Positions 57,697-59,474 of a DNA stretch of 64,000 nucleotides are shown here, in pieces. The notes beneath the pieces are model-generated. The model ran no database searches. It worked only from the letters and a program-made list of their open reading frames with translations, and was not told the DNA's origin. The stretch is from Desulfobacter postgatei 2ac9 (GTDB lineage Bacteria; Desulfobacterota; Desulfobacteria; Desulfobacterales; Desulfobacteraceae). Position numbers and translations under genes: made by a program. The stretch spans positions 708,049 through 772,048 of the forward strand of contig NZ_CM001488.1 of NCBI RefSeq assembly GCF_000233695.2. The letters run 5' to 3'. Position 1 is the first letter of the stretch, and each line of letters starts with the position of its first letter.

Positions 57697-57697
57697 T

Positions 57698-57713
57698 TGG
57701 CATATTGCTTGCT
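57698..57713 (+). promoter_or_regulatory. Sigma-54 (-24/-12) promoter
   Basis: TGGCATATTGCTTGCT has the invariant GG (57699-57700) and GC (57711-57712) exactly 10 nt apart and matches TGGCAY-N5-TTGCW in every informative base. Predicted transcript start about 57724, about 65 nt before the small ORF at 57789. The gene next downstream of that ORF encodes a sigma-54 activator. Confidence 0.82.
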
Positions 57714-57788
57714 GTCTTTACTATTGAGATTATTTTTTTATAAAATGACAACAGACCTGCTTAATTCTTATTTTAAAGGAAATGGCGA

Positions 57789-57941
57789 ATGGAATTTTTG
57801 TTTGTGATCGGTTTTGTTGCAGTTTATCTACTGTTTCAAATCTATATTCTTCCTAAAATGGGTGTATCCACCTGAATGCGTGATGCCTGTCAGGTGACAG
57901 ACAAAAAGAAAAAAAAGAACCCGTTTGAAGATAACGATTGA
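57789..57941 (+). CDS. Candidate 50-residue membrane selenoprotein (in-frame TGA as Sec)
   Basis: ATG 57789 with AAAGGA at 57775-57780. The first 28 codons give one membrane helix, MEFLFVIGFVAVYLLFQIYI followed by LPKMGVST. A TGA at 57873-57875 follows; in the same frame 21 more codons read MRDACQVTDKKKKKNPFEDN-D before the next TGA at 57939. The tail is what a small inner-membrane protein should have (Lys cluster, acidic end), and the TGA would place Sec29 five positions before Cys34 (U-x4-C). A hairpin fitting the bacterial SECIS rules follows the TGA. If TGA is a real stop, a 28-residue membrane peptide remains. Confidence 0.55.
57873..57900 (+). promoter_or_regulatory. Possible bacterial SECIS element
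   Basis: After the TGA (57873-57875) comes an 11-nt stretch, then CTGTC (57887-57891), loop AGGT (57892-57895) and GACAG (57896-57900): five perfect pairs. The loop starts 16 nt after the TGA and has G at its second position, within the known limits for bacterial SECIS hairpins. The AGGT loop also equals the start of the apical loop of E. coli fdhF. The lower stem is weak. Confidence 0.5.
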
Positions 57942-58073: not shown

Positions 58074-59474
58074 GTGAATAACGACGGGATCAGGAATCTT
58101 AATTTCTTAAACCACATTTTAGATGCCATGGCTGAAGGGTTGTTTACTTTGGATCAGGACGGTAAAATTACAGCCTGGAACCAGGCGATGGAAAATATCA
58201 GCGGCTATACCGCCCAAGAGGCCGTGGGACAGCGGTGCTGCCTGATAAAATGCAGCCGGTGTTATGATCAGGTGAATCCGTCGGATATATCCCAATGCGG
58301 GGTGCTGGCCCATGGCAAAACAGAAGCCAAGGAGTGCTTTATTCGGCACAAGGACGGTTATGATGTGCCGGTGATTAAAAATGCCAGACTGGTTCGGGAT
58401 GAAAAGGGCAATGTGCTGGGCATTGTGGAAACGTTGACCGATTTAACGGAAATTAAAGCCATCAAGGCCCGGGAAGCGTCTGCCAAGCAGGAACTTAAAA
58501 AACGTTACGCGTTAGGTAATATTATTGGTAAATCAGCAGCCATGGAAAAGGTATTCCATGCCATCCGGGCTGCAGCAGACAGCCGGGCGACCATCCTGAT
58601 CCAGGGGGAGAGCGGCACAGGCAAAGAGCTTGTAGCCCGGGCCATCCACTATGAATCGGCCGGAGGGCAGCGTCCCCTGGTAACGGTGAACTGCTCGGCA
58701 CTGTCCGAGACCCTGCTGGAAAGTGAGTTGTTCGGTCATGTCAAAGGCGCTTTCACCGGTGCGCACAAAGACCGGATCGGACGGTTTGAACAGGCAGATA
58801 CGGGCACGATATTTCTTGATGAAATCGGTGAACTGACGCCATATATGCAGGTAAAGCTGCTGCGGGTGCTCCAGGAAAGGGAAATTGAACGGGTGGGAGA
58901 TACCCGGAAAAAGAAAATTGACATCCGGATTATTGCTGCCACCCATAAAGATTTGAACACCCTGACCCGGGAGGGTACGTTTCGTGAGGATTTGTATTAC
59001 CGCCTTAAGGTGTTTCCCATTCGCCTTCCGCCGTTGCGTCAGCGTTTGGAGGATATCCCTTTGCTGGTCCGAAGCTTCATTGAAAAGGGGAACAAGCACG
59101 AAGGCATGGAGATTCGCAATGTGACCCCTGACGCCATGAAAGCGCTGATGGCCTATCCCTGGCCCGGAAATGTGCGGGAGCTGGAAAATGCCATTGCCCA
59201 TGGCTTTGTGCTGTGCCGCACCCGGGAAATAAGCCGAGAGGATCTGCCGGACGAGGTTTGCGGCCAGGATCAATTCTATGCCGCGCCCCCAGGCAGCTCC
59301 GCATTCCCAAGCCCGCTATCCTTTTCCCCGACACATTTGACCCGGGAACGTCTATTGTTGCTTCTGGATGCCTGCAACTGGAATAAGGCTGAAGTGGCAA
59401 GACAGCTTGGAAAAAGTCGGACCCTTGTATGGAAGTACATGAAAAAATGGGATATTCCCCTTCAAAAAGGTTAA
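58074..59474 (+). CDS. Sigma-54-dependent activator with Cys-rich PAS sensor
   Basis: 466 residues from GTG 58074 (CGGGAGAC upstream). PAS domain at about 8-125 containing Cys55, 56, 60, 63, 75 and 88 (RCCLIKCSRCYDQ, ISQCGV, KECFIRH), a pattern suited to metal, Fe-S or thiol sensing. AAA+ domain about 158-390: [51 protein letters not shown]. Fis-type helix-turn-helix at the end (WNKAEVARQLGKSRTLVWKY). The nearest -24/-12 promoter is at 57698, upstream of the small candidate selenoprotein, which is the likely target. Confidence 0.93.
   Translation: MNNDGIRNLNFLNHILDAMAEGLFTLDQDGKITAWNQAMENISGYTAQEAVGQRCCLIKCSRCYDQVNPSDISQCGVLAHGKTEAKECFIRHKDGYDVPVIKNARLVRDEKGNVLGIVETLTDLTEIKAIKAREASAKQELKKRYALGNIIGKSAAMEKVFHAIRAAADSRATILIQGESGTGKELVARAIHYESAGGQRPLVTVNCSALSETLLESELFGHVKGAFTGAHKDRIGRFEQADTGTIFLDEIGELTPYMQVKLLRVLQEREIERVGDTRKKKIDIRIIAATHKDLNTLTREGTFREDLYYRLKVFPIRLPPLRQRLEDIPLLVRSFIEKGNKHEGMEIRNVTPDAMKALMAYPWPGNVRELENAIAHGFVLCRTREISREDLPDEVCGQDQFYAAPPGSSAFPSPLSFSPTHLTRERLLLLLDACNWNKAEVARQLGKSRTLVWKYMKKWDIPLQKG

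Follow-up and report, generated by a model that had tools for sequence, protein, structure and literature searches.

A small predicted membrane selenoprotein of Desulfobacter postgatei and its apparently selenocysteine-only family in the phylum

Layout of the gene

The stretch of DNA analyzed here (the window) comprises 64,000 nucleotides (nt) of the genome of Desulfobacter postgatei 2ac9 and contains a short open reading frame (ORF) beginning with the ATG at 57789. An earlier reading made from the letters alone (the sequence-only reading) had proposed this ORF as a new small membrane selenoprotein. Translated through its in-frame TGA, which is written U for selenocysteine (Sec), the product is MEFLFVIGFVAVYLLFQIYILPKMGVST-U-MRDACQVTDKKKKKNPFEDND. 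There are 21 further codons 3' of the TGA at 57873-57875, and the terminal stop at 57939-57941 is also a TGA. The ribosome site, the helix, the in-frame TGA, the 21 codons, and the cysteine five residues on were all located where that reading had placed them. The features of the gene are as follows.

57789..57941, + strand: putative selenoprotein gene of 50 codons, with predicted Sec at codon 29
57775..57780, + strand: ribosome-binding site AAAGGA, 8 nt 5' of the ATG
57801..57851, + strand: single predicted transmembrane helix, best 17-residue window from residue 5 (Kyte-Doolittle 2.42)
57873..57875, + strand: predicted Sec codon TGA, residue 29
57884..57903, + strand: putative selenocysteine insertion sequence (SECIS) hairpin, loop AGGT at 57892-57895, 16 nt between TGA and loop
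57888..57890, + strand: Cys34, presumed resolving or partner residue (UxxxxC)

The ribosome-binding site was assigned from the sequence, and many homologues have comparable purine-rich sites as judged by eye. Such a gene is easily missed by gene finders because the codon read as Sec appears as an internal stop.

Homologues and conservation across the TGA

We searched 40 related genomes with the read-through peptide. Matches were obtained in 36 genomes at E<=1, and those in 34 genomes were at E<=4e-7 with one TGA inside. The remaining two genomes (G015 and G035) had only stop-free matches at E values of 0.3 to 1, which were taken as chance, as were all stop-free rows of this search (E of 0.09 or worse). 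In the GTDB species collection, a short-pattern scan identified 25 loci, whose labels were Desulfobacter, Desulfotignum, Desulfobacula, Desulfosarcina, a Desulfarculaceae bacterium, or those of relatives named less precisely. A profile of 50 rows (A1), used at a threshold of E<=0.01, matched 235 of the 291 genomes of the class and 161 of the 395 genomes of the phylum, and a TGA lay inside every class and phylum match among the matches listed. No homologue was found in the plasmid, phage, and viral collections searched. The gene set used below was drawn from 190 loci, of which 60 were picked for diversity from the phylum list; these gave 173 profile matches and 148 distinct genes, one of which (L055) is truncated at the end of its contig. 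The counts for the 148 genes come from related sequences and hence are not independent.

The TGA occupies one shared column in the 50 distinct genes of the first set as well as in the 148 of the wider set, where it is flanked by the conserved blocks LPKxGxxT and xxxxC. Relative to the TGA, Gly at -4 and Pro at -7 are invariant (148/148), Thr is found at -1 in 146 genes, and Gln or Asn is found at -12 in 147. The first Cys after the TGA is at +5 in 135 genes, at +6 in 8, and at +7 in 1, and it is distant or absent in 4.

The sequence-only reading had named, as evidence that would count against a selenoprotein, homologues in which conservation ends at the TGA. This was examined with nine Desulfobacter-type genes (36 pairs, ungapped comparison). 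The mean identity was 91% over the 63 nt after the TGA, compared to 51% over the 60 nt after the terminal stop. Differences at the first, second, and third codon positions numbered 126/30/198 before the TGA and 14/0/77 in the tail 3' of the hairpin, so that 77 of the 91 differences in the tail were at third positions. The first ten codons after the TGA (14/42/49) were the sole stretch without the third-position pattern. We interpret the second-position excess there as Val/Gly/Glu and Asp/Gly changes tied to the hairpin stem.

SECIS hairpin and selenocysteine machinery

The hairpin that had been described 16 nt from the TGA is present and consists of a 5-bp stem (CTGTC/GACAG) below the AGGT loop, followed by one mismatch and two outer pairs (U-A and G-C). 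The bacterial SECIS model, as given in one source, has a loop of 3 to 9 nt with a G among its first two nucleotides, a stem of 4 to 16 bp, and a distance of 16 to 37 nt from the UGA, with a minimum free energy (MFE) cut of -7.5 kcal/mol (PMC13188914). The window hairpin has this geometry in its loop, stem, and spacing. For the 148 genes, we required a stem of 5 bp or more without interruptions, a loop of 3 to 8 nt with a G among its first two nucleotides, and a spacing of 16 to 37 nt, with no energy cut. This geometry was found after the Sec codon in 134 genes, whereas 45 of the 148 had it 3' of the terminal stop; among shuffles, the fraction was about 16%. An MFE of -7.5 kcal/mol or lower was reached by 111 of the 148 copies and, among the 75 CQ-type copies described below, by 50. 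With dinucleotide shuffles, the region 3' of the Sec codon had a mean fold z of -1.62, compared to -0.74 for the region following the terminal stop and -0.28 for that preceding the Sec codon. With synonymous-codon shuffles, the mean z after the Sec codon was -1.68, with p<=0.05 in 71 of the 148 genes.

Covariation was assessed with 75 distinct CQ-type genes, which remained of 93 genes with CQ when repeats of the 33-nt stretch were dropped. In the five-pair stem, 90.4% of cells were paired. There were 28 double-change cells compared to 7.9 in shuffles, none of 500 shuffles reached 28, and the slid controls each gave 7 or fewer. The double changes were confined to two of the five stem pairs, a number of pairs that is not more than chance (1.9 in shuffles). 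Pair 18-25, which couples the third base of the Cys codon to the first base of a Thr/Ala codon, was U-A in 51, C-G in 19, and U-G in 4 of the 75 genes. The position and sequence of the hairpin vary by lineage, with G-rich loops (AGGT and GGA) retained. An Rfam search at the site gave no SECIS-like family and only chance matches.

The genome was also checked for the Sec genes selA, selB, selC, and selD, as the sequence-only reading had proposed, and all were found: selA at 598 bits, selB at 353 bits, selD at 374 bits, and the Sec tRNA (tRNA-Sec) at 73 bits. In the phylum sample, selA was found at E<=1e-60 in 355 of the 395 genomes. All 161 carriers of the gene have a Sec marker, with selA in 154 and tRNA-Sec above the cut-off in the other 7; in this comparison, half of the selA-negative genomes were inferred from gaps in the list. 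Because selA is nearly universal in the phylum, its co-occurrence with the gene is consistent with Sec insertion rather than telling. The selD match of the D. postgatei genome (G000 C1 2076894-2077817) itself holds one in-frame TGA, indicating that the selenophosphate synthetase is probably also a selenoprotein.

The TGA column in 148 genes, the coding character of the sequence after the TGA, and the presence of the Sec machinery support the earlier call of a new small membrane selenoprotein. We estimate the probability of a real selenoprotein with the predicted membrane topology, leaving the substrate aside, at roughly 0.93. The insertion of Sec at codon 29 appears nearly certain from the comparative data, and SelB, tRNA-Sec, and the hairpin just 3' of this codon would recode the UGA as Sec.

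Absence of a cysteine form

Homologues with either Cys or TGA at position 29 had been expected. The expectation held for TGA but not for Cys, as TGA alone was seen. Because TGA was translated as Cys in the profile search, that search was equally able to detect a Cys form; none turned up among the matches listed in the searches of the 291 class genomes and the 395 phylum genomes. An 83-row profile (A3) was additionally run on 80 of the 233 phylum genomes without an A1 match, 32 of which also lacked selA. The 30 loci inspected from these genomes included no Cys form and instead included three divergent TGA forms (L191, L198, and L214). The usual, although not essential, evidence for a selenoprotein, namely, Cys homologues, was thus not obtained within the phylum, while other phyla were covered by the short-pattern scan alone. 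Within the phylum, the Sec-only status is well supported by these sequence comparisons.

In two of the divergent forms, L191 (locus positions 1501-1581) and L214 (1501-1578), the TGA is displaced or stands in a GIHGU context, which suggests a wider superfamily. L198 (G335 C1, about 158915-159247, minus strand) is a tandem pair of single-helix peptides that are distantly related and both contain an in-frame TGA (GMGGGU and FGMRGU). When the second of these peptides was compared with 80 genomes, a strong match was found in its own genome only, along with one weak row.

We consider it probable that the gene represents an overlooked, phylum-wide, Sec-only family of membrane-anchored selenol microproteins in which Cys cannot substitute for Sec, with divergent relatives (tandem pairs and GxxxU forms) that would extend it to a larger superfamily. 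The family would have been overlooked because standard gene calling and searches based on Cys homologues are blind to Sec-only genes. According to a 2026 review, nearly all selenoproteins have Cys homologues (PMC13188914). A recent method paper states that such homologues now seem to exist for every known selenoprotein, that the deep-Sep pipeline may drop those without, and that glycine reductase selenoprotein A was earlier thought to be Sec-only (PMC12013277). A candidate cytochrome of Geobacter had also been reported in 2007 to occur with TGA only (PMC1914089). The Sec-only claim made here is therefore not the first of its kind. Since the family is widespread and Sec-only as far as searched, it would be a counter-example to the view that all selenoproteins have Cys homologues and would warn that methods based on Cys/Sec pairs miss genes. 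With 50 residues, one helix, and one Sec, the protein is also a minimal system for asking what selenium offers over sulfur in a phylum rich in sulfate reducers.

Predicted topology, neighboring genes, and function

The hydropathy of the helix (Kyte-Doolittle) was greater than 1.6 in all 147 homologues longer than 35 residues. The mean number of Lys and Arg residues was 4.65 in the 25 residues after the helix, compared to 0.45 before it, and the number after the helix exceeded that before it in all 147. According to the positive-inside rule, the side rich in lysine and arginine faces the cytosol, and the tail and the Sec are therefore predicted to be cytosolic. The product would thus be a single-pass inner-membrane microprotein with an external N terminus and a lysine-rich cytosolic tail, and in this orientation the Sec would lie within a few residues of the inner face of the membrane. 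We regard this cytosolic anchoring, as predicted, as very likely. The near-invariant Gln or Asn at -12 may pack against a partner.

We looked for a conserved operon among the 148 loci, but no gene was a neighbor in all of them. The most frequent small Cys-rich neighbor was an FmdB zinc ribbon, which was found near 28 of the 148 loci, always within 1.3 kb and in twelve families (family assignments here and below are the tool's labels). Ten genomes (about 43 Mb) contained 62 FmdB-type matches, nine of which were the neighbors themselves; from this background, fewer than one FmdB neighbor would be expected among 148 stretches. Thioredoxin was found near 17 of the 148 loci, 8 from one lineage in which the gene is divergent and 9 from six families. 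Thioredoxin and FmdB together cover 42 of the 148 loci. Rubredoxin was found near L120, YgaP-like membrane proteins were found near L139 and L151, and ArsR-type regulators were found near 5 of the 148 loci.

In the function that we propose, the selenol and Cys34, the usual resolving residue, would form a selenenylsulfide during turnover, which could be re-reduced by thioredoxin. The protein may thus act as a membrane-anchored PrxQ-like reductase or as a relay for peroxides, polysulfide, or disulfides. The thioredoxin-linked redox role is tentative, and we give it somewhat less than an even chance. Alternatively, the Sec of a genuine selenoprotein could bind a metal or metalloid or act as a sensor instead of serving in a catalytic reductase, and the FmdB zinc ribbon would then be its partner. 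The FmdB-type neighbors in twelve families and the ArsR-type regulators would fit such a role, but no second conserved ligand besides the Cys was seen, and the thioredoxin, rubredoxin, and YgaP-like neighbors point to electron transfer. We consider the ligand or sensor role unlikely, although not negligibly so.

Other gene arrangements were observed in particular lineages. In 11 loci of one family (L109-L111, L113-L116, L119, L121, L123, and L124), the gene lies between a 3D-domain protein and a protein of about 143 residues, both of which are near in the same 11 loci; the latter protein had no Pfam match at E<=0.001. In L176, L182, and L190, the gene is directly 3' of an apparent glutamyl-type tRNA synthetase gene (confirmed with Pfam for L176 only). 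In L161, L165, L166, L185, and their relatives, the gene is overlapped or followed by that of a small Cys-rich protein about 70 residues long, in some cases together with FmdB and ArsR-type genes, and these loci are possibly redox or metal-stress islands.

Sigma-54 promoter, adjacent activator, and other readings of the TGA

Two further features flank the gene in the window.

57698..57713, + strand: sigma-54 (-24/-12) promoter TGGCATATTGCTTGCT, exact consensus, 75 nt 5' of the ATG
58074..59474, + strand: sigma-54-dependent activator with Cys-rich PAS, AAA+, and helix-turn-helix domains (Pfam PAS, Sigma54_activat, and HTH_8), candidate dedicated regulator in the lineage

The sequence TGGCATATTGCTTGCT is the sole exact match to TGGCAYRN4TTGCW on both strands of the window. 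Exact sites were found in the upstream regions of 15 of 146 homologues, and sites with one mismatch were found in 2 more, while no exact site occurred in 20 shuffles per region or on the reverse strand. The exact sites are limited to Desulfobacter- and Desulfobacula-type loci, which means that the family as a whole is not characterized by a sigma-54 promoter. The promoter proposed by the sequence-only reading is therefore exact and, by its conservation, real, but it is not family-wide. A sigma-70 scan gave 6 weak sites compared to 2.4 expected. A relative of the activator lies close to 23 of the 148 homologues, and of the 15 homologues that have an exact sigma-54 site, 12 have such a gene in their vicinity. 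Sigma-54 would switch the gene on in Desulfobacter- and Desulfobacula-type bacteria, probably via the neighboring PAS-type activator, and the conserved control in these two groups makes the conditions of expression testable. Several Cys residues lie in the PAS domain of the activator, an arrangement that would fit redox sensing or metal binding.

The TGA could also be an ordinary stop, in which case the product would be a 28-residue membrane peptide, and the rest would be a noncoding RNA, a terminator, or a relic. A single-helix peptide of 28 residues is plausible in itself, and the window hairpin alone is just mildly stable. However, the 63 nt after the TGA change in the manner of a protein-coding sequence, with mostly third-position differences beyond the hairpin and a fall in identity only past the terminal stop, and the Cys at +5 is kept in 135 of the 148 genes. 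A terminator reading was rejected, as no terminator-like site was found around the gene. An ordinary stop is thus very improbable. Equally improbable is a selenium-sensing leader, in which read-through of the TGA would report the supply of Sec-tRNA and control the downstream sigma-54 activator gene. The activator gene does follow in Desulfobacter- and Desulfobacula-type loci, but it is near just 23 of the 148 homologues and at times upstream of them, its GTG is separated from the selenoprotein gene by 132 nt in the window, and the peptide is conserved phylum-wide, including the residues past the TGA. A genome-wide code change, with TGA read as Trp or Cys, has nothing more than the open frame in its favor and is the least credible reading, since the genome has the full Sec machinery and 61 of the 148 family genes, including the window copy, end in a TGA followed by no conserved frame, indicating that TGA also serves as an ordinary stop.

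Several observations weigh against the reading of the gene as a membrane-anchored, thioredoxin-linked selenoprotein. The window hairpin does not reach the -7.5 kcal/mol cut (MFE of -6.6 kcal/mol, z of -1.42, and 17 of 200 shuffles folding as well), and neither do 37 of the 148 copies in all. The case for a SECIS element is accordingly a comparative one and is not carried by the stability of the window hairpin itself. Seven carriers have no selA match at E<=1e-60, although all seven have tRNA-Sec. Four of the 148 genes have no Cys within ten residues of the TGA, indicating that an intramolecular selenenylsulfide is not the whole story. Neither thioredoxin nor FmdB is nearby in 106 of the 148 loci, with many flanks of just 1.5 kb, and the 8 thioredoxin cases with a divergently placed gene (of 17) represent one lineage. 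The neighbor classes were picked post hoc, and the thioredoxin count of 17 of 148 stands without a background rate. Finally, the resemblance to PrxQ described below scores about 15 bits compared to a model cut-off of 260, indicating resemblance and not membership.

Comparison with known families and systems

Scans of 50 and of 83 members against Pfam, NCBIfam 20.0, and PHROGs gave no significant family and only weak, scattered matches. The most frequent of these among the 50 members were PrxQ (11 members, best E of 0.0054) and DMAC1 (9 members, best E of 0.0074), and the lowest E overall was 0.0023, for a PHROG membrane protein. The PrxQ model (NF053650) weakly matched 3 of the 83 members in the wider set, and where the matching stretch was inspected, it covered the Sec-Cys segment. 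A PDB profile search gave nothing significant, with two weak matches at E of 0.57 and 0.94. The NCBIfam models named for hypothetical proteins in the selenoprotein table of PMC13188914 were absent from the matches of the 50 and 83 members. The selenoprotein family is thus not found in the libraries and literature searched, the latter being mostly open literature, so that an earlier mention is possible. There is a modest chance that the family has already been named in a paper or RefSeq annotation outside those searched.

The gene resembles the cataloged prokaryotic selenoproteins (119 families and subfamilies in Table 1 of PMC13188914) in its predicted UGA-encoded Sec, in-frame SECIS just downstream, Sec machinery, and likely redox role. 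Judging from names and motifs, that table contains no entry that we could identify as a single-helix membrane microprotein with UxxxxC. The FmdB family (PF09723/TIGR02605), for which the same source lists a selenoprotein form, is likewise small and Cys rich and is a frequent neighbor. It differs, however, in being a separate gene that encodes a zinc ribbon, with no membrane-helix family relation seen. The PP0621 family (NF041023) weakly matched 3 of the 83 members (best E of 0.0053), with residues 1 to 43 aligned in one member, but the match is far below the cut-off (12 bits compared to 45).

In PrxQ, the peroxidatic and resolving Cys residues are five residues apart. The spacing of Sec and Cys in the protein described here matches that of this Cys pair, in addition to the weak profile overlap. 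In contrast to PrxQ, which is a soluble thioredoxin-fold protein of about 148 residues, the microprotein has no such domain. The eukaryotic SELENOK and SELENOS are small single-span membrane proteins with the Sec in a short charged cytosolic tail, and by description only, the predicted product is similar in its size, its single span, and the placement of its Sec in a charged cytosolic tail. In SELENOK and SELENOS, however, the Sec is near the C terminus and the SECIS is in the 3' untranslated region, whereas the Sec predicted here is about 7 residues after the helix.
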